Assembly (NCBI GenBank): GCA_903887845.1
Contig: CAISRC010000020.1
Location: forward strand, 1-34,774
Origin: an uncultured Chlorobiaceae bacterium
GTDB lineage: Bacteria; Bacteroidota; Chlorobiia; Chlorobiales; Chlorobiaceae
Length of the DNA stretch: 34,774 nucleotides
Direction of reading: 5' to 3'
The notes below the pieces were generated by a model. It was not told the origin of the DNA. It saw only the letters and a program-made list of their open reading frames with translations, and did not search any database. The translations under genes and the position numbers were made by a program. Positions 7,091 through 16,153 of the stretch are shown here, one piece after another. How positions within the stretch are numbered: the first letter of the stretch is position 1; each line of letters opens with the position of its first letter.

Positions 7091-9025
7091 TTATCTCCTC
7101 TGAATATGGTTGATGACATCGGCAAGCCGGTCAATTTCATCTTTCGTGTTGTAGAAGGCCAGCGACGGCCTCACGGTTCCCTCAACACCGAACCGGCGCA
7201 ATGATGGCTGGGTGCAGTGGTGCCCAGTGCGGACGGCAATTCCTTCGCGGTCAAGCAGTTTCCCAACCTCATCGTTCGGCAGATTGTTCAGCACAAAGGA
7301 GAGTACGCCCACCTTGTTTCTTGCCGTTCCGATAAGACGAAGACCGGGAATCCGAATAAGCCGCTCGGTGCCGTATTCAGTCAGCTCGTGCTCGTATTGA
7401 GCTATATTCTCAATACCGATTTTTCGGACGTAGTCGAGAGCAGCTCCAAGGCCGATGGCGTCGCCGATTGAAGGTGTTCCAGCTTCAAATTTTGCCGGGG
7501 CTTCGTTGTAAATGGTCTCTTCAAAGCGTACATCTTTGATCATGTTGCCGCCGCCCTGCCATGGCGGCATCACCTCAAGCAGCTCTTTTTTGCCATAGAC
7601 GACACCGATACCCGTCGGTGCAAAGATTTTATGGCCTGAAAAGACAAAAAAGTCTGCATCAAGATCCTGCACATTGACCGGTATGTGGGCAACAGATTGG
7701 GCTCCATCAACAAGCACTCTGGCGTCATAGCGTTTGGCCAGTTGAATCATCTCCCTGACAGGCAGAATGGTTCCAAGTCCGTTCGAAGCCTGTGTCAGTG
7801 AAACGAGTCTTGTGCGTGGCCCGAGCAGTTTGGTGTACTCTTCCAGGATGATTTCGCCCCGATCGTTGACCGGTATCACCTTGATGCGCGCCCCTTTCTC
7901 CTGGGCTACCATCTGCCACGGAACGATATTGGCATGATGCTCAAGAATCGAGAGAATAATTTCATCTCCCGGCTGGAGAAACTTTCTTCCCCAGGTTTGT
8001 GCTACAAGGTTGATACCCTCGGTAGTGCCCCTGACATAGATGATTTCTGAGGTTGAGCCAGCGCCTATGAATTGCCTGATCTTTTCGCGTGCGCCTTCGT
8101 AAGCGTCCGTTGCGCGTGCTGCAAGGGTGTGCGCCCCGCGATGGATATTCGAATTGTCCGTGGCGTAGAAGTGAGCGACAGCGTTGATGACGCTCAACGG
8201 CTTTTGTGTAGTGGCGGCGTTGTCGAACCAGGCAAGTGGTTTGCCGTGAATTTTCTGATGCAGGACCGGAAAATCCTTGCGAATGGTGGCGACATCAAAC
8301 CCTTCTGCCTGATGGATCGGCTGTTGTGGTTCACGCAGGAAATAGTATGGTTCTGAGGGAGAATCCGGGATGCTGAAGGCGCTGTTCGGCCAGACCGGAG
8401 CTGGCGCTTTTCCTGGAGACTCAGGTTGAGTAACGGGTAATCGATCAAAGCCCGGCTGGGCAGGCGACTCGGCGCTACCGCGAAGAGCCTGAAAAACGAC
8501 CTCCATGACGGGACTGCCCTGTTGCTCGGTGAACTCCCTGTAGAGCTTTTCAGCGTAACATTCATTTTCATCAGTCTGTACAGGCAGTGAACGCCGCAAA
8601 AGCTGCTCAAGACCATTCGATCCATTTTCACTTTCTGAATAGTTCTGCTGTTCGGTCAGTTTATTGGCATGGTGTCCAAGTGGTTCCGGCTCTTTTTCTT
8701 GTCTTTTCGGCAAAAAATAAAAATCGTGCACAGGCAGTGCTGAATCGGCACTGGAGGGGAAATCGACAGAATCCTGTGTGCTGAGGTATGTTATTTTATC
8801 GCTTGGCGTGGAGGTTACTGCGGATGGCGCTTCTGAGGCATCGCGTTCGTTTCTCGGGATGCTTCCAGCCTCCGGGACTTCATTGAAGAGACGGCTTGCA
8901 AGCTGAGCAATAAAGGTCGGATTCAGCGATTCGCTTTCGGCACCTGTGATGTTCGGATGTTGATCTGCTCCTGGCATAAGATAAACAATTGTGAATTCAT
9001 GGCAGACACGTTGAGAGCCTGCCAT
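7091..9025 (-). CDS. SufS-like cysteine desulfurase with long disordered N-terminus (probable encapsulin cargo)
   Basis: The catalytic part (from about residue 242) is a class II cysteine desulfurase that removes sulfur from cysteine using PLP. It has the LAWFDNAATT start, the EHHANIVPW segment, PLP lysine K466 (FSGHKIF) and the persulfide cysteine C604 (TGHHCTQPS). Ahead of it are about 240 residues rich in Ser, Pro, Glu and Gln, of low complexity, with short hydrophobic islands: FIAQLASRLFNEVP (38-51), FYFLP (102-106) and YYFLR (227-231). Such an N-terminal extension is known from cysteine desulfurases packaged into family 2 encapsulins. The gene starts 22 bp after the shell gene. ATG at 8977 is an alternative start; neither start has a clear ribosome binding site. 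Confidence 0.9.
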   Translation of the reverse strand: MAGSQRVCHEFTIVYLMPGADQHPNITGAESESLNPTFIAQLASRLFNEVPEAGSIPRNERDASEAPSAVTSTPSDKITYLSTQDSVDFPSSADSALPVHDFYFLPKRQEKEPEPLGHHANKLTEQQNYSESENGSNGLEQLLRRSLPVQTDENECYAEKLYREFTEQQGSPVMEVVFQALRGSAESPAQPGFDRLPVTQPESPGKAPAPVWPNSAFSIPDSPSEPYYFLREPQQPIHQAEGFDVATIRKDFPVLHQKIHGKPLAWFDNAATTQKPLSVINAVAHFYATDNSNIHRGAHTLAARATDAYEGAREKIRQFIGAGSTSEIIYVRGTTEGINLVAQTWGRKFLQPGDEIILSILEHHANIVPWQMVAQEKGARIKVIPVNDRGEIILEEYTKLLGPRTRLVSLTQASNGLGTILPVREMIQLAKRYDARVLVDGAQSVAHIPVNVQDLDADFFVFSGHKIFAPTGIGVVYGKKELLEVMPPWQGGGNMIKDVRFEETIYNEAPAKFEAGTPSIGDAIGLGAALDYVRKIGIENIAQYEHELTEYGTERLIRIPGLRLIGTARNKVGVLSFVLNNLPNDEVGKLLDREGIAVRTGHHCTQPSLRRFGVEGTVRPSLAFYNTKDEIDRLADVINHIQRR

Positions 9026-9047
9026 GACGGGTTGTCAAAGAGTTCTT

Positions 9048-10502
9048 TTATTTTACTTTGGTTCCGGAGGTGCGATGTTCGTAATCGTGATAGTAGCCCA
9101 CTTCGACATTTTCAAGTATCGCGAGAGCATCATCAGTCAGTACTGCCAATGATGAGTAGAGGGTCAGCAGGTAGGAAGCGACACCCAGTTTGTCGAGTCC
9201 CATCAGTCTTGCAGAAAGGCTCGGGCTGATCTCTCCGGGAATCCCAGCCTGGTGCAGTCCAACTACACCCTGCTCATTTTCACCGACACGCACAAGGATG
9301 ATATTGGTTGTGCCATGACCGGATTTGCTGTTTTTGTTGATTTCAAGCTTGTCGCATGGAACAAGAGGAACGCCGCGCCAGGTCAGGACTGGAGTTCCAA
9401 AAAGGTTGATTGTCGGTGGAGGAACGCCGCGCCAGGTGCATTCGCGTTCAAAGGCCGCAATTGCTTTGGGATGAGCAATAAAGAATGCCGGTTTCTTCCA
9501 CACTTTGGTGAGCAGATCGTCAAGATCATCCGGGGTCGGAGTTCCGTAGCGGGTGCTGATGCGCTGGCCGGGATCTGCGGAGTGGAGCAGACCGAACTCC
9601 CGGTTGTTGATGAACTCCCACTCCTGACGCTCCTTGATGCCCTCAATCGTCAGACGCATCTGCTGCTCGATCTGGTTGAAGGGTTCGTTGTAGAGGTCGG
9701 AGACCCGTGTATGGACTCGTACGACGGTCTGGATGGCCTGCAGCGAGTATTCGCGAGGTTTGTTCGAATAATCTACATAGGTTTCCGGGATTTCAACATT
9801 TTCCTCAAATCCGGCAATAAGGTCAATATGTTTTTCACCGTGTTTGTTCACGGTAGAGCGTATTTTGAGGTACTCTTCTACCGCTTTCTGATATGACTCC
9901 TTCAGGGATGGTGATTCTCTCAGTAATTTTTCGATATCAACGCTTGAGATCGAAAAATATGAGCCAGGGGTGATGGTACGAATCGTGACTGAGGATGGTT
10001 TCTCTGAAACAAGCTCTTCTTCACCGAAATACTCTCCCTCTGAAAGCAGGGCGATACGGAGATCTTCACCATGAAGTCCCTTGCTTAAAATTTCGACTTG
10101 CCCATTCGCTATAATGAAGATTTTATGACGTTCTTCGCCTTCAAGAATCAGGGTGTTGCCAAGTTCGGCCTCTTCAAGCACAAACTTGCTTGCAATGCGA
10201 CCAATAATATCATCGTTAAACGATGCAAAGAGTGGAATACTTTTTAGTGCTGAAGGTCTGAACGAGGCTATACCGTCATGAAAATCAATGCCGATACGTT
10301 CGGGTTTCTGGAGCTCAATTTTTGTCCGGTTAACGCGATAGGTACCAGAAGAGACGTGAACCCACGGGAGCAGTTTCAGGAGCCACCTCGGGGTTATGGA
10401 GTTCATCTGAGGAGGAGTCTTGGTCGTATTGGCCAGATTTCTCGCTACATGGGTTGTCACGCTGCGCTGGAGATAACTGTTTGATTCGGGTTGTGCGTTC
10501 AT
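9048..10502 (-). CDS. Family 2 encapsulin shell protein with inserted cyclic-nucleotide-binding domain
   Basis: An HK97-fold shell protein of the SrpI/family 2 type, expected to form a protein compartment in the cytoplasm. Residues 1-60 are the N-terminal arm (SITPRWLLKLLPWV, SGTYRVNR). Residues about 84-220 are a cNMP-binding domain (IPLFASF, IIANGQVEIL, GEYFGEEELV). Residues about 245-484 are the capsid core (YSLQAIQTVVRVHTRVSDLY, EFINNREFGL, INLFGTPVLTWRG). The phosphate-binding cassette keeps FGE but has PSSVTI where cAMP binders carry an arginine (RAAT-like), so ligand binding may be lost or altered. The cargo-like desulfurase follows at 22 bp and serine acetyltransferase precedes at 43 bp. 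As I recall, cNMP-bearing shells (family 2B) are usually paired with terpenoid enzymes and desulfurases with 2A shells, so this pairing is unusual. Confidence 0.88.
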   Translation of the reverse strand: MNAQPESNSYLQRSVTTHVARNLANTTKTPPQMNSITPRWLLKLLPWVHVSSGTYRVNRTKIELQKPERIGIDFHDGIASFRPSALKSIPLFASFNDDIIGRIASKFVLEEAELGNTLILEGEERHKIFIIANGQVEILSKGLHGEDLRIALLSEGEYFGEEELVSEKPSSVTIRTITPGSYFSISSVDIEKLLRESPSLKESYQKAVEEYLKIRSTVNKHGEKHIDLIAGFEENVEIPETYVDYSNKPREYSLQAIQTVVRVHTRVSDLYNEPFNQIEQQMRLTIEGIKERQEWEFINNREFGLLHSADPGQRISTRYGTPTPDDLDDLLTKVWKKPAFFIAHPKAIAAFERECTWRGVPPPTINLFGTPVLTWRGVPLVPCDKLEINKNSKSGHGTTNIILVRVGENEQGVVGLHQAGIPGEISPSLSARLMGLDKLGVASYLLTLYSSLAVLTDDALAILENVEVGYYHDYEHRTSGTKVK

Positions 10503-10545: not shown

Positions 10546-11460
10546 TCAAATGCCGAGACCGTCGGTAAAACTGCTTTCAACAGCGATCTGCTGCAAGACT
10601 CTTGAATTGGGCGGTACACTTTTTGTCTGCCACACGTTGCCACCGATAACAGAGTTTTTGCCGATGGTTATTCTGCCAAGAATATTGGCGTTTGAGTAAA
10701 TGACGACGTTATCCTCAATAATTGGGTGGCGAGGCAGATTCTTGACCGGGTTGCCGTGTTCATCGAGGGCAAACTTCTTTGCGCCAAGGGTTACTCCCTG
10801 GTAGAGTCGGACGTGGCTGCCGATAATGCAGGTTTCACCGATGACGACACCGGTGCCATGATCAATTGAAAAATAGTCTCCGATGTGAGCGCCGGGATGA
10901 ATGTCAATCCCGGTTTCCGAATGGGCCATTTCAGTAATAATTCTCGGAATCAGGGGCACGCCAAGCGACAGCAGGGTGTGAGCTGAGCGGTAGTTGACCA
11001 TTGCCCTGATGGAAGGGTAGCAGAAGATGATCTCACCATAGTTTTTTGCCGCCGGGTCTCCGTCGTAGATGGCCTTGACGTCAGTCCATAATTTCTTCCT
11101 GATCTCCGAAAGAATTCCTATGAATTGACGGGCGATCTCAGCAGCTTTTTCAGAGGCATTGGCAGCACTGTTGTTTTCTGTGTCGAAATGCTGAACGCTG
11201 AGAATCTGTTCAGCAAGCAATCCGTAGAGTTTTTCAACCCTGACACCGAGAAAATGTTGAAGCGACTGGCGACGCAATACGGGTCCGCCGAAATACCCTG
11301 GAAAGAGTATTGACCTGAGGAGTTCGACAATCTCTTTGAGCTTTTCAATAGAGGGCAGCAGATATTCGTGCTGCCCGGAATAGTCACCTTCACTATCATC
11401 AGCAGGGCTCGATAAAAGCTTGATCGCCTCTTCAATGATATCGCCGTTGTTGGTCTGCAT
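10546..11460 (-). CDS. cysE: Serine O-acetyltransferase
   Basis: Makes O-acetylserine from serine and acetyl-CoA, the substrate of the cysteine synthase encoded just upstream. The 304 residues include a helical N-terminal domain and a left-handed beta-helix of hexapeptide repeats (IDIHPGAHIGDYFSIDHGTG, then VVIGE, VRLYQGVTLGA, NVVIYSNANILG). The His-Asp pair of the active site lies in DHGTGVVIGE. The N-terminal part is longer than in E. coli CysE, like the extended anaerobe type. Adjacent to the encapsulin gene (43 bp) and to cysK (51 bp). Confidence 0.92.
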   Translation of the reverse strand: MQTNNGDIIEEAIKLLSSPADDSEGDYSGQHEYLLPSIEKLKEIVELLRSILFPGYFGGPVLRRQSLQHFLGVRVEKLYGLLAEQILSVQHFDTENNSAANASEKAAEIARQFIGILSEIRKKLWTDVKAIYDGDPAAKNYGEIIFCYPSIRAMVNYRSAHTLLSLGVPLIPRIITEMAHSETGIDIHPGAHIGDYFSIDHGTGVVIGETCIIGSHVRLYQGVTLGAKKFALDEHGNPVKNLPRHPIIEDNVVIYSNANILGRITIGKNSVIGGNVWQTKSVPPNSRVLQQIAVESSFTDGLGI

Positions 11461-11511: not shown

Positions 11512-12465
11512 TCAAATATTGACTGGTTCACTGTCAAACTGGTAGAGCAGCGTGGAGAGGTACCGCTCTCCAGTATCCGGCAGGATGACGACAATCCGTT
11601 TGCCCTTGTTTTCCTCACGCAGTGCAAGCTGTAAAGCGGCATACACGGCTGCGCCGGAAGAAATACCCACAATAAGTCCTTCGGTTTTGGCCAGTTTTCG
11701 GCCGGTACGAAGGGCATCTTCATTTTTAACCGGGATAATTTCATCGATAATGGAAGTGTTAAGAATATCCGGCACAAAACCGGCGCCGATACCCTGTATT
11801 TTGTGTGGTCCAGGTTTACCGCCGGCAATAACCTGTGAATCGAAGGGTTCAACAGCGACGATCTTTACCTCGGGGTTCCGCGCTTTGAGTACTTCTCCGA
11901 CACCGGTTATCGTACCACCCGTGCCTACGCCGCTGACAAAGAAATCAACCTTTCCGTCGGTATCATTCCAGATCTCTTCTGCCGTTGTTTTGCGATGAAT
12001 TTCAGGATTTGCAAGGTTTTTGAACTGTTGCGGAACAAAAGAATTTGGATATTCCGCGTGCAGTTCATCGGCAGTTCTGATGGCTCCGACCATACCTTCA
12101 GGGCCAGGTGTCAGAACCAGCTCTGCGCCAAGCGCCTTGAGCAGATTCCTGCGTTCGAGACTCATGGTTTCAGGCATCGTGAGTATCAGGCGGTATCCTT
12201 TGGCTGCGGCGATAAATGCCAGAGCAATACCGGTATTGCCGCTTGTCGGCTCAATAATGATGCTCTCTTTATTCAGCAAGCCCTCTTTTTCAGCTTTGTC
12301 GATCATTGAAAAACCGATACGGTCTTTGACACTTCCGCCCGGGTTAAAGTATTCAAGTTTGGCAATAATCGTGCCCAGGGCATCATGTTCACGATTGAAA
12401 TTTCCAAGCTCAAGAAGTGGTGTGTTTCCGATAAGATCGGTCAATTTTTTTGCAATACGTCCCAT
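11512..12465 (-). CDS. cysK: Cysteine synthase (O-acetylserine sulfhydrylase)
   Basis: A PLP enzyme that turns O-acetylserine and sulfide into cysteine. The 317-residue protein shows [10 protein letters not shown], the PLP lysine K47 in NPGGSVKDR, the substrate loop PTSGNTG (73-79), and the phosphate-binding GTGGTITG segment. Length and motifs are typical of CysK. With the next gene (serine acetyltransferase) it forms the two-step cysteine pathway and possibly the CysK-CysE complex. A 106-bp gap separates it from the regulator gene upstream; no clear promoter was recognised there. Confidence 0.94.
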
Positions 12466-12571: not shown

Positions 12572-13225
12572 TCAGATATGGTATTCAATATTGTCGATCA
12601 ATCCCGCTTTTATGGCATACATGAGCAGTTCCGGACTGCTTGAAACGCCGAGTTTGCGAAAAATGTTTTTTCTGTGTGTCATGACGGTATGAAAACTGAT
12701 ATGTCGTTTTGTCGCAATTTCTTTTGTTGAAAGCCCACCGGCAATCAAACGAACTATTTCGATTTCTGAAGTGGTAAGAATGCTGGCATCCTCAAAAGGT
12801 GCCTCCTTTTTCAGAAGAATATCCAGCACATTTCCAGAATAATATTTCTTTCCTTTCAGTGCAGCGTCAACAGCATGAAAAATCTCTTCGCGATCATCGG
12901 TTTTCAGTGCAATATTTCTGATGCCGATATCATTTAATTCCTTTATTTTTACATTTGTCAAGGAGTTTGTCAACACAACGATTCCTGTCTCCTGGTGCTT
13001 TTTTCTCAGATCAGCAAGATCATTGATTGAATCAAAATCGAAAAGGAGATCATCGGTGATGATGAGCGCGATGGTCTCCTTTTGCAGATACTGTTGCAGA
13101 TCGGCCTTTGTCGATACAGTATGGAAGGTTTGGAAAAGGGGCCTCAACATGGAGTGTATCGCTTCATTGGTTAAATACTGGGTATCAGCAAGAATGACAG
13201 AGATGTTCTTGTATTCGTTTTTCAT
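12572..13225 (-). CDS. LuxR/NarL-type response regulator
   Basis: A 217-residue two-domain regulator. The N-terminal receiver-like domain has acidic LADTQ near residue 13, a candidate phosphoacceptor D58 or D59 in IITDDLLF, and a lysine near 107 in ALKTDD. The C-terminal LuxR helix-turn-helix (about 148-212) is well preserved (LTTSEIEIVRLIAGGLSTKEIA, then TVMTHRKNIFRKLG). The acidic pocket is not fully standard, so phosphorylation is uncertain. It starts 2 bp after the metY stop, so it is probably translationally coupled and co-expressed with the sulfur genes it may control. No histidine kinase is nearby. Confidence 0.85.
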   Translation of the reverse strand: MKNEYKNISVILADTQYLTNEAIHSMLRPLFQTFHTVSTKADLQQYLQKETIALIITDDLLFDFDSINDLADLRKKHQETGIVVLTNSLTNVKIKELNDIGIRNIALKTDDREEIFHAVDAALKGKKYYSGNVLDILLKKEAPFEDASILTTSEIEIVRLIAGGLSTKEIATKRHISFHTVMTHRKNIFRKLGVSSSPELLMYAIKAGLIDNIEYHI

Positions 13226-13227
13226 GG

Positions 13228-14529
13228 TTACGGTTTAGTTGCCACTCTCTGAAGCGCCTCATCAAGGGCTTCGATCAGGTCGTCAGGATGTTCAAGGCCG
13301 ATTGAGAGACGTATCAGGTCTGGTGAAAGACCACTCTGCAGTTGTTGTTCTTCGGTCAACTGGCTATGCGAGGTGCTTGCCGGATGGAGGATCAGGCTCT
13401 TGGCATCGCCAACATTGGCCAGGTGTGAGAAAAGTTTGATGTTGTCGATAATCTCCACGGCAGCATCGTACCCACCCTTTACTCCAAAGACGACCATGCC
13501 GCCAAACCCGTTCTTCAAATCTTTTGAAGCTTTAGGGTAAGAGGGGTCATTTTTCAGACCGGGATAACGAACCCATGCAACTCCCGGGTGTTTTGCAAGA
13601 TGTTCAGCAACCTTGAGTGCATTTTCTGAATGACGGGCCATTCTGACAGGCAGAGTTTCAATGCCTTGCAGCAGTATCCATGAATTGTCAGGCGCAATGC
13701 AGGCACCGAGATTTCTGAGTGGTACCGTACGGAAGCGAAGGGCGAATGCTATTGGCGCAAGAGGTTCCGGAAGGTCAATGGCCCAGCGCAGACCGTGGTA
13801 ATTGTTGTCTGCCTCGGTAAAGAGTGGATGTCGTCCGCCATTCCAGTTGAAACGTCCGGCATCAGTAATAATGCCGCCTATTCCTGAACCATGGCCGCCA
13901 AGCCATTTGGTGAGGGAGTTGATCACAATATCAGCTCCAAGGTCAATCGTTTTAAGCAGGTAAGGGGTGGTGAAGGTGGCATCGACAATCAGCGGCAAGC
14001 CGTTACGGTGTGCTACCTCGGCAATAGCCTTGACATCAGTATAGTCAAGAACCGGATTGCCGATGGTTTCAATGAAAAGAGCTCTTGTTTTTTCTGTGAT
14101 TGCCTTTTCAAAATTGGCCGGATCTTTGGGATCAACAAAGGTGACGTTGATGCCAAATTTCGGAAGGATGGCATCGAACTGGGTATAGGTTCCACCATAA
14201 AGGTTGTTGGCAGACACAATGTTGTCGCCTGCTTCTGCGAGAGTAATGATCGTATTGAAAATTGCGGCAGTGCCCGATGCGACGGCAACCGAGGCGGCGC
14301 CTCCTTCAAGCTTGGTAACCCGTTGCTCAAGAGTGTCGGTAGTCGGATTCATCAGCCGGGTGTAGATATTGCCAAGCTCCTTGAGGGCAAAAAGGTTAGC
14401 CGCATGTTCGGTGCTTTTGAAAAGATAGGAGGTTGTGCGATAGACCGGCACTCCACGCGAGAGAGTTGCGTCAACAGGCTGGCCTGCGTGCAGGGCAAGC
14501 GTTTCAAAGCGATAGTTTTCTGAACTCAT
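13228..14529 (-). CDS. metY: O-acetylhomoserine sulfhydrylase
   Basis: A 433-residue PLP enzyme of the Cys/Met family that joins sulfide to O-acetylhomoserine to give homocysteine. It shows FETLALHAGQ, YTRLMNPTTD, the SGTAAIFN loop, VDATFTTPYL, and the PLP lysine K208 (INSLTKWLGGHGSG). The longer length and the extra segment around GRFNWNGGRHPLF separate it from cystathionine lyases. No metX homoserine acetyltransferase lies in the window. It is the second gene after the attenuator-like leader at 15092-15219. Confidence 0.92.
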   Translation of the reverse strand: MSSENYRFETLALHAGQPVDATLSRGVPVYRTTSYLFKSTEHAANLFALKELGNIYTRLMNPTTDTLEQRVTKLEGGAASVAVASGTAAIFNTIITLAEAGDNIVSANNLYGGTYTQFDAILPKFGINVTFVDPKDPANFEKAITEKTRALFIETIGNPVLDYTDVKAIAEVAHRNGLPLIVDATFTTPYLLKTIDLGADIVINSLTKWLGGHGSGIGGIITDAGRFNWNGGRHPLFTEADNNYHGLRWAIDLPEPLAPIAFALRFRTVPLRNLGACIAPDNSWILLQGIETLPVRMARHSENALKVAEHLAKHPGVAWVRYPGLKNDPSYPKASKDLKNGFGGMVVFGVKGGYDAAVEIIDNIKLFSHLANVGDAKSLILHPASTSHSQLTEEQQLQSGLSPDLIRLSIGLEHPDDLIEALDEALQRVATKP

Positions 14530-14572: not shown

Positions 14573-15049
14573 TTATGCAGTTTTTTGTTCGTTGATCTGC
14601 GCCCTGTTTCCAAAAAGCTTGAAGCGTTGCAGATTGAACTGGTAGAACAGGAAGCAACCGAAGCAGAAGCCTGCAAGTGCTATGGTGGCTGCAACAGCAA
14701 CCATCCCGGAAAGGATCCACCCGACAAGAGGTGCGCCTGAAAGGAAAGCGATCTGGGCTCCTCCGAGCAGAATAGCCGCAATGGAGTTGTTGAATCGCAT
14801 GAGTCTCGGATCTTCACTTTCAGCAGTCATGTTTTGTTTTGCAAAAAGGCGTGAGCCGATGAAAAAAATAAGGCTGCCGTTTTTACCAAAAACTACAGCG
14901 GAAAGAATTATAACAAAAAGTGCGGTGGTCACAATCGGCAACTGGAACATTATGGCAGAAGCAATGCCCACGAGCAGCACCACACGGTTCAGTTTTACAA
15001 TCGGTAACGGGATGCCAACGCATGTGGCTGATGTTGCAGTAGATGACAT
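14573..15049 (-). CDS. DUF4395 family membrane protein
   Basis: From ATG 15049 this is a 158-residue integral membrane protein with four predicted hydrophobic segments (VVLLVGIASAIMF, VTTALFVIILSAVVF, AAILLGGAQIAFLSG, MVAVAATIALAGFCFG). The LNR box near the N-terminus and the late CFGC cysteine pair (GFCFGCFLFY) fit DUF4395, a family of unknown function often found beside sulfur or thiol genes. A longer GTG start at 15106 falls inside the terminator hairpin and is rejected. It is the first gene after the leader/terminator structure and lies 43 bp before metY, suggesting a role in sulfide, cysteine or thiol handling (inference). Confidence 0.75.
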   Translation of the reverse strand: MSSTATSATCVGIPLPIVKLNRVVLLVGIASAIMFQLPIVTTALFVIILSAVVFGKNGSLIFFIGSRLFAKQNMTAESEDPRLMRFNNSIAAILLGGAQIAFLSGAPLVGWILSGMVAVAATIALAGFCFGCFLFYQFNLQRFKLFGNRAQINEQKTA

Positions 15050-15091
15050 GTTATTTTTCAATTGGTAGTTTAAATAAAATGAAAATAAAAA

Positions 15092-15118
15092 AACCGACTC
15101 TGACACTCAGAGCCGGTT
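15092..15118 (-). terminator. Terminator/attenuator hairpin upstream of the sulfur operon
   Basis: On the minus strand a 12-bp stem (15118-15107 with 15103-15092) encloses the 3-nt loop GUG and is followed by UUUUUAUUUU (15091-15082). The one imperfect pair (97 with 113) is a G-U wobble in minus-strand RNA but an A-C mismatch in plus-strand RNA, so the structure is meant for the minus strand. It stands between the leader ORF (15154-15219) and the first structural gene (15049), the position of a transcription attenuator. Confidence 0.8.
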
Positions 15119-15153
15119 GCAAGACTTGGTACTTCATGAAATAATATGAGTAA

Positions 15154-15219
15154 CTATCTCCTTCCAGATATCTCCGTGTCAGAATGGTGTGGCCATTGGC
15201 AACAGCAGTAGCAGCACAT
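15154..15219 (-). CDS. Cysteine-rich leader peptide (putative attenuator uORF)
   Basis: ATG at 15219 opens a 21-codon frame that begins MCCYCCCQWPHH and ends at TAG 15154-15156. Five of codons 2-7 are cysteine (TGC, TGC, TAC, TGC, TGT, TGC). It precedes an intrinsic terminator and then genes for sulfur assimilation. Such a run suggests ribosome stalling when charged Cys-tRNA is scarce. RNA 15185-15176, just after the Cys codons, can pair over 10 nt with the terminator loop and 3' arm (15106-15097), offering an antiterminator. Weak points: no clear Shine-Dalgarno sequence precedes the ATG, and translation is not shown. Confidence 0.6.
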   Translation of the reverse strand: MCCYCCCQWPHHSDTEISGRR

Positions 15220-15264
15220 CGTGAAAGTTTTAGAAGTCCCTGAATTCATAACTCAAATGTTTTC

Positions 15265-15289
15265 GGTTAAGCATTAACGATTGTTAACC
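15265..15289. promoter_or_regulatory. Palindromic operator (TTAAC-N4-GTTAA) and promoter of the sulfur operon
   Basis: The core TTAAC-GATT-GTTAA (15274-15287) is nested in an outer GGTTAA/TTAACC repeat (15265-15270 and 15284-15289). On the minus strand a -10-like TATGAA lies at 15250-15245, giving a start near 15238. This places the core centre about 42 bp upstream, the usual place for a class II CRP/FNR-type activator, and the -35 is poor, as expected for an activated promoter. The regulator identity is unknown. Confidence 0.45.
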
Positions 15290-15343
15290 ATATTTCTGCA
15301 AATTTCCAAATAAATCCTGACTTTTTTTAAAATTTATGCGTGA

Positions 15344-16153
15344 TCAGCTTATCCCGATAATGACGCTTGAGGCCTTGAATGCTGCGCAGGCATGGTCGCC
15401 CTCTTTCAATGACATTTTTTCTGAACTGCCATGGGTAATAACAGCAGAAATGACATTCCCGCCACCAATTTCAACATCAACTTCTGTATTGACCGGACCT
15501 TCAATAAGCTTGTTGATTATGCCTGGCAAAATATTGCGGGTACTTATTTTTGCCTCGTGCAGCTCCTGGCCGATAATAATTGAGCTTGCCTTGATGATTG
15601 CGTAAGCATTTATGCCTTCCTTAAGTCCCAGGTTATCAACGGAACCATTGGTGATAATGGCGACAATACGGCTTCCTCCATTGAGCAGAAGGACAACTTC
15701 AGAATTAACTGCTCCCTTGATGATTTTTTCCACGGTACCGGAAAAAATGTTGCGTGCACTGATTTTCATAGCTATTCTTTTAAGAAATTGATAAAGATGA
15801 TTGCTCTCTCCGAGACGATCTCCGAGATTCTGAAGAAACTTCCGGTGCTCTTCCTGAACAACACGGAACTGTTCAATAACTTTTTTCCCCTCTTTGGTCA
15901 ACATGGTGCCACCACCACCTTTTCCGCCTGTTACGCGGTCAACCAGAGGTTTTTCTGAAAGATTATTCATCATGTTGACCAAATGCCATGCCGTTTTGTA
16001 GCTGATGCCGACAGCTTTTGCAGCGCTGCTGATTGAGCCAAGCTCATCGATTTTTTCCAGCAATGCAATCCGGTCGCCTCCGAGAAACCTGTTCTCGGCC
16101 TTCTGAAACCAGACTGACCCTTCAAGGCCGATGAGCTCTTTTCTGCATGTCAT
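15344..16153 (-). CDS. modE: Molybdenum-responsive transcriptional regulator ModE
   Basis: ModE binds molybdate or tungstate and then controls uptake and cofactor genes. The 269-residue protein has a LysR-like winged helix (about 25-110: LLEKIDELGSISSAAKAVGI, GGKGGGG wing) and two molybdate-binding MOP/TOBE repeats (about 135-200 SARNIFSGTVEKI and about 204-269 STRNILPGIINKL). This is the full E. coli ModE layout. A strong ribosome binding site, GGGAGGAG, lies 7 nt before the ATG. It is divergent from moaA. Two ModE-box-like palindromes occur at 33521-33544 and 33588-33611 in this same window. Confidence 0.93.
   Translation of the reverse strand: MTCRKELIGLEGSVWFQKAENRFLGGDRIALLEKIDELGSISSAAKAVGISYKTAWHLVNMMNNLSEKPLVDRVTGGKGGGGTMLTKEGKKVIEQFRVVQEEHRKFLQNLGDRLGESNHLYQFLKRIAMKISARNIFSGTVEKIIKGAVNSEVVLLLNGGSRIVAIITNGSVDNLGLKEGINAYAIIKASSIIIGQELHEAKISTRNILPGIINKLIEGPVNTEVDVEIGGGNVISAVITHGSSEKMSLKEGDHACAAFKASSVIIGIS

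Follow-up and report, generated by a model that had tools for sequence, protein, structure and literature searches.

A putative Cys-codon attenuator before a sulfur-assimilation operon, and its relatives, in Chlorobiaceae

Poly-Cys leaders of actinobacteria were reportedly treated by Canestrari in 2020. Short ORFs with runs of Cys codons are known before cysteine genes of mycobacteria and other actinobacteria (PMC1262725), and the uORFC-8-2 motif, located before cysS in Rhodobacterales, joins a tandem-Cys uORF to an intrinsic terminator, for which ribosome-mediated attenuation was proposed (PMC8632094). An earlier note on the DNA studied here mentioned the actinobacterial cases and knew of none in Chlorobi, in agreement with the open-licence literature that we searched, where the Rhodobacterales case is also known and no Cys leader or Cys attenuation is described for Chlorobi (subscription papers were outside the scope). 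Rfam gave no match above the gathering threshold, and none credible at a relaxed threshold, in the whole window (the 34,774-nucleotide stretch of an uncultured Chlorobiaceae bacterium analyzed here), nor any leader match in seven other leader loci.

We propose, with considerable confidence, that the leader found in this window is a ribosome-mediated transcription attenuator sensing charged Cys-tRNA and that it belongs to a family of such leaders, which together form a regulon for cysteine scarcity in Chlorobiaceae; translation, stalling, termination, and the cysteine response are all inferred, without expression, Ribo-seq, or term-seq data. The earlier note had recognized the logic of trp and his attenuation with cysteine as the signal, which the conserved Cys codons, terminator, and competing pairings support computationally. 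The RNA supports an attenuator with the three classical states, and, besides the conservation of these Cys codons, of the terminator, and of the two competing pairings, the leader recurs before other operons, many of them sulfur-linked.

The sulfur operon and its Cys-codon leader

The operon lies on the minus strand and starts with a gene for a DUF4395 protein (14573-15049; PF14340, E=3e-23). It continues with a metY-like Cys/Met metabolism PLP enzyme (13228-14529; PF01053, E=3e-130), a LuxR-type response regulator (12572-13225; PF00196 above cut-off, PF00072 just below it), a cysK-like PLP enzyme (11512-12465; PF00291, E=5e-75), a cysE-like hexapeptide acyltransferase (10546-11460; PF00132), a Family 2A encapsulin shell protein, cNMP-binding and SrpI-like (9048-10502; PF19307, E=3e-117, and PF00027), and a SufS-like cysteine desulfurase with a long N-terminal extension (7091-9025; PF00266, E=3e-146). 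The SrpI-like shell (PF19307, PF00027) and the desulfurase (PF00266, N-terminal extension) meet the test for a family 2A encapsulin operon, the desulfurase being the probable cargo by analogy with known family 2A systems (PMC8346489). Encapsulin followed by desulfurase (7091-10502) is the typical cargo layout.

Upstream of this operon, reading the minus strand directly gives M-C-C-Y-C-C-C at 15219-15199, with the Cys-codon run TGC TGC TAC TGC TGT TGC at 15199-15216 and a TAG stop at 15156-15154. The 21-codon ORF described earlier (15219-15154) was exact in its Cys run and stop; its start is what has to be revised. The internal ATG at 15219 was rejected because no more than 36 of the 45 aligned leaders keep it, while an upstream ATG about ten codons ahead of the Cys run can be placed in all 45. 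Judging from this alignment, the in-frame ATG at 15249 is almost certainly the start, which would give an ORF of 31 codons (15154-15249, minus, predicted peptide MNSGTSKTFTMCCYCCCQWPHHSDTEISGRR*). No clear Shine-Dalgarno sequence precedes this upstream ATG in the window or in most of the aligned relatives, so the absence, conceded in the earlier note as a weak point, is both real and the rule; purine-rich stretches stand ahead of the ATG in L022 and L024.

Querying with the DUF4395 protein returned 65 loci, almost all from Chlorobiaceae MAGs, the others from Chlorobium ferrooxidans and from a few MAGs labelled as Chloroflexota; a poly-Cys leader ORF is located upstream of DUF4395 in most of the Chlorobiaceae loci, that of Chlorobium ferrooxidans (L017) included. 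We aligned 45 leaders, that of the window and those of 44 further Chlorobiaceae loci, upstream of DUF4395-metY. Because all 45 keep a Cys-run ORF and a terminator at the equivalent place, neither can be put down to chance. The operon gene order is also largely kept among relatives, as far as the contigs extend. The alignment, which the earlier note had suggested as a check, reveals a conserved Cys run, covariation in the stem, and conserved competing pairings. Loss of the Cys codons with retention of the hairpin, which would have refuted the proposal, is mostly not observed since both are conserved together; the exceptions are a few deep-branching loci (L036, L039, L041, L047, L055, L061), which retain the terminator but have no more than scattered Cys codons, and L011, where the terminator is present and no Cys ORF was found.

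Within the aligned leaders, the run is kept as TGY codons (130 TGC against 84 TGT), and its indels are multiples of three, so that its length varies by whole codons. Outside the Cys codons, a pN/pS of about 0.8 indicates little amino-acid constraint; as a protein, only the Cys codons of this predicted peptide are conserved. With about 30 aa enriched in Cys codons (3-7 Cys), 45 loci, and metY/cysK/cysE downstream, the ORF meets the test for an amino-acid-sensing leader.

A ModE-like gene (15344-16153) is located upstream on the same strand with its end near 15344, and the hairpin might merely terminate this gene, the Cys ORF then being a chance frame. We regard this as scarcely tenable, as it is strongly disfavored by the conserved Cys frame: the in-frame Cys run stands at equal distance in the 45 relatives, it is kept where the ModE-like homologue was not found upstream or is on the other strand (L008, L014, L018, L024, L031), and an equivalent layout recurs ahead of unrelated genes. 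Moreover, the ModE-like gene is separated from the leader by a conserved promoter/operator-like box, the palindrome TTAACAATCGTTAA (15274-15287, minus), preceded at 17 nt by a -35-like TTTGGA (15305-15310, minus), which is found in nearly all aligned upstream regions and whose function is inferred.

The palindrome, conserved in the aligned leaders, is likely a promoter/operator box. The motif TTAACRATYGTTAA has five exact copies in the genome (window 15274-15287; G000 C2:4328, C55:4211, C82:420, C112:2317), against none for the reversed control, and four of the five are at sulfur or methionine genes: one at the window leader, one at the C82 sulfate leader, one upstream of an operon that includes sulfite-reductase-like and PAPS-reductase-family genes, and one before a SAM-I riboswitch and a metB-like gene; the fifth copy is near genes without evident sulfur link. 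The motif probably serves sulfur assimilation as an operator or promoter, and its binding protein is unknown. The riboswitch just mentioned (RF00162, 55.5 bits, L205:1534-1678) lies before the metB-like gene in the window's genome. The palindrome is also kept at loci without the attenuator: Chlorobaculum-like L048, L051-L053, L058, and L064 retain DUF4395 and the TTAACRATYGTTAA box, and no leader ORF or terminator was seen at these six DUF4395 loci, which form a natural contrast with a transcription-factor box only.

Terminator and competing pairings

Between the leader ORF and the first gene, about 35 nt after the leader stop, lies an intrinsic terminator (15087-15118, minus), as expected of an attenuator of this type. 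Its 12-bp stem and U7 tract, described in the earlier note, are confirmed by fold energy (-18.1 kcal/mol, z = -5.55; 0 of 200 shuffles fold equally well) and by covariation in the alignment, where 97.2% of cells are paired, five pairs show double changes, and the score is reached by 0 of 500 shuffles. These results bear on the possibility that the leader acts at the level of translation or through Rho, the terminator being minor. Mycobacterial poly-Cys leaders were indeed reported without obvious terminators, Rho being suggested (PMC1262725), and as translation attenuators (PMC13236596). Nevertheless, a strong intrinsic terminator with covarying pairs occurs in every aligned leader and recurs with leaders elsewhere, and we consider such a mechanism very improbable here.

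Between the ORF stop and the terminator, a central hairpin-like element (15131-15151, minus; ACUCAU...AUGAAGU in the window, similar in relatives) has an unknown role, possibly as a pause hairpin or spacer. Its ACUC/ACUU ... AAGU form recurs in DUF4395 leaders and C40-type leaders.

Two pairings upstream exclude each other. Segment 1, UGUUG within the Cys codons (15200-15204, minus), is the 5' half of the protector and pairs with UGACA (15181-15177) in segment 2, AUUCUGACAC (15176-15185, minus). In the 45 leaders, 97.8% of protector cells are paired, compared with 27-68% in slid controls. Since this hairpin includes the sensing codons, it fulfils what is required of a protector (1:2); it does so without double changes, and the constraint on its pairs is confounded with that on the Cys codons themselves. 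The AAUGG/CCAUU hairpin (15197-15193 with 15187-15183), to which the earlier note had assigned this role, does exist in the window, but it is found only there and in a few close relatives and was rejected as the conserved protector in favor of UGUUG:UGACA.

Segment 2 alternatively pairs over 10 nt with 15106-15097 (AUUCUGACAC : GUGUCAGAGU), an exact match that was correctly located before. As a whole, the antiterminator consists of UUCUGACA : UGUCAGAA, which takes the terminator loop and 3' arm, and of GGA.AUCGG : CCGGUUCU, which takes the 5' arm. This second element is CUGG in the window (15164-15167, minus), pairing with CCGG at 15116-15113, and AUCGG in relatives, pairing with CCGGU. RNAalifold, applied to transcripts cut ahead of the 3' arm, predicted the antiterminator unprompted, including the 5'-arm pairing, so that a helix with the 3' arm alone, counted in the earlier note as a weakness, has been replaced: the 3'-arm pairing stands, the exclusion of the 5' arm does not. 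Because it also takes the 5' arm, the antiterminator can begin to form while the 3' arm has yet to be transcribed.

In the 45-leader alignment, 89.6% of antiterminator cells are paired (25-49% in slid controls). Covariation gives it only weak support, since there is hardly any variation in its columns: the share of paired cells does not exceed that of column shuffles (52/500); for double changes, the figure is 2/500. In one clade (L040, L044, L049, L050), a U-to-C change at column 163 breaks a terminator pair (C-A), while an A-to-G change at column 88 in the leader keeps the antiterminator pair 88-163; this is probably one evolutionary event.

We also computed partition functions for the 45 leaders with a ribosome mask placed mid-Cys run, at the stop, or absent, and obtained 11.6, 0.74, and 7.1 expected antiterminator pairs, respectively. 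Pairing is higher in the stalled than in the stop state in 44 of the 45 leaders (13.7 against 0.08 in the window). The stop-state value is partly built in, because the mask covers the second antiterminator element. An antiterminator that excludes the terminator and is freed by stalling at the sensing codons is thus obtained, computationally only.

These pairings suggest how the leader might work. When cysteine is plentiful, the ribosome would pass the Cys codons to the stop and mask the second antiterminator element, the Cys-codon/UGACA hairpin could re-form behind it, and the terminator would fold, ending transcription. When cysteine is scarce, the ribosome would stall at the Cys run and block the protector, leaving the UUCUGACA...AUCGG segment free to pair with the terminator 5' arm first, then with the loop and 3' arm, and RNA polymerase would proceed into the operon, whose products would make cysteine and store sulfur in encapsulins.

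Further leaders and a possible regulon

The covariance model R1 was built solely from leaders of the DUF4395 locus. Of the 65 genus genomes, 50 contain a match to it at E<1e-10, and additional matches lie elsewhere in genomes bearing DUF4395 leaders. Among 62 matches examined outside the DUF4395 locus, a TGY run is present in 57. Read in the Cys frame, 56 of these runs lie in a short ORF that has an ATG start and ends ahead of the terminator; the two other frames give such an ORF in 13 and 16 cases. As R1 includes the last Cys codons, the search is biased towards TGY runs, but not towards their reading frame. Matches outside the family (L097, L099-L101, L103-L106) were taken as background terminators because they lack a comparable poly-Cys ORF, save one 14-aa TTG-started frame in L101.

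Such leaders also stand ahead of other operons, of at least nine kinds, and many of these have a clear link to sulfur. The first genes code for an MKKMFSLAAM porin-like protein without Pfam match (13), Porin_O_P (11), radical SAM proteins (10; NF045502 where tested), sulfate-binding protein (7), SsuB/TauB-type ATPase (4), BadF-type activase (4), RND adaptor (4), PNPOx (2), SDR (2), and NifH-like proteins (2). Many downstream genes are sulfur-related (sulfate-binding protein, SsuA-like and ABC proteins, MarHDK). When the leaders of the other operons were folded with a similar mask, stalling favored the upstream pairing in 44 of 52 cases, a result partly imposed by the mask.

The leader, treated as a single case in the earlier note, is one of at least six in the window's genome, where poly-Cys ORFs were not counted exhaustively. 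The five others are located at C40:15777 (CCCC), C40:18684 (CALYCCRC), C40:29040 (SCCVC), C40:43498 (CCC), and C82:404 (CSDLRCC). The last three have weak R1 E-values (0.005-0.03) and are retained for their Cys ORF, their terminator, and their stronger relatives in other genomes. Downstream of C40:29040 lie HDK genes, which among solved structures are closest to the methylthio-alkane reductase MarDKH (PDB 9FMG); C82:404 stands ahead of a sulfate-binding-protein-like gene, cut by the contig edge to its first 64 aa and identified by likeness to L171. A genome scan for TGYTGYTGYTGY was of no help, with 64 matches, most unexamined and many presumably intragenic; this pattern misses the CCYCCC run of the window. 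The region G000:C40:8000-45700 (L138 / L139) holds MarHDK-like genes, two SsuA-type transporters, radical-SAM proteins, BadF/HgdB-type reductase genes, and four poly-Cys leaders, and is likely an organosulfur-scavenging island.

Conservation of Cys residues alone would equally well fit a poly-Cys nascent peptide that is itself the sensor, a ligand such as zinc, an Fe-S cluster, sulfane sulfur, or a thiol oxidant, rather than Cys-tRNA charging, stalling or releasing the ribosome. Runs of 3-7 Cys are plausible metal or persulfide ligands, and the downstream genes are sulfur-related. However, the Cys spacing is not fixed (CCCC, CC-C, C..CC, CCYCCC), the leaders are otherwise unrelated between operon classes, and tRNA sensing is simpler and has precedent; we therefore hold a peptide sensor to be unlikely.

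With Cys-tRNA charging as the preferred signal, a genome-wide cysteine-attenuation regulon of about ten operon classes appears probable, each class having its own poly-Cys leader and terminator, partly layered with the TTAACRATYGTTAA transcription-factor box. The common sulfur-scavenging signal would then be Cys-tRNA charging and not a CysB- or CymR-type protein. The classes comprise cysteine synthesis with encapsulin storage, sulfate uptake, SsuABC-type uptake, MarHDK methylthio-alkane reductase, radical-SAM proteins, two porin families, BadF/HgdB-type reductase, RND adaptor, PNPOx, and SDR.

Green sulfur bacteria are usually pictured as bathed in sulfide. The genus nonetheless seems to maintain an RNA circuit for sulfur shortage that spans many operons, as would suit its lake-dwelling and iron-oxidizing members. 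Very probably, the leaders let these bacteria switch on sulfur scavenging when cysteine is short, although experimental evidence is lacking throughout. The family 2A encapsulin operon and the methylthio-alkane reductase operon thereby receive a probable signal, Cys-tRNA charging, and radical-SAM, porin, and BadF/HgdB-type genes that otherwise lack a name become candidates for organosulfur scavenging.

Comparison with known systems

As far as open-licence searches go, the mechanism is of a known kind, and the novelty lies in the phylum, in how broad the regulon is, and in the two-armed antiterminator. Like the trp and his attenuators of enterobacteria, the Chlorobiaceae system has a leader peptide rich in the regulated amino acid, a segment 1 within the sensing codons, and mutually exclusive protector, antiterminator, and terminator. 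It differs in its cysteine signal, in the absence of a clear Shine-Dalgarno sequence, and in its antiterminator, an imperfect long-range helix that takes the base of the 5' arm as well as the loop and 3' arm. The SAM-I riboswitch (RF00162) shares RNA-level control of sulfur amino-acid genes, but it relies on a ligand-binding aptamer without leader peptide.

Short Cys-run ORFs ahead of cysteine genes are shared with mycobacteria and other actinobacteria, another phylum, whose leaders reportedly lack conserved terminators and, in the mycobacterial case, are leaderless ORFs, whereas the Chlorobiaceae leader has a covarying intrinsic terminator. The uORFC-8-2 motif shares both the tandem Cys codons in a uORF and the intrinsic terminator; it occurs only before cysteinyl-tRNA synthetase and has two Cys codons, whereas the Chlorobiaceae leaders typically have 3-7 and precede about ten operon classes.
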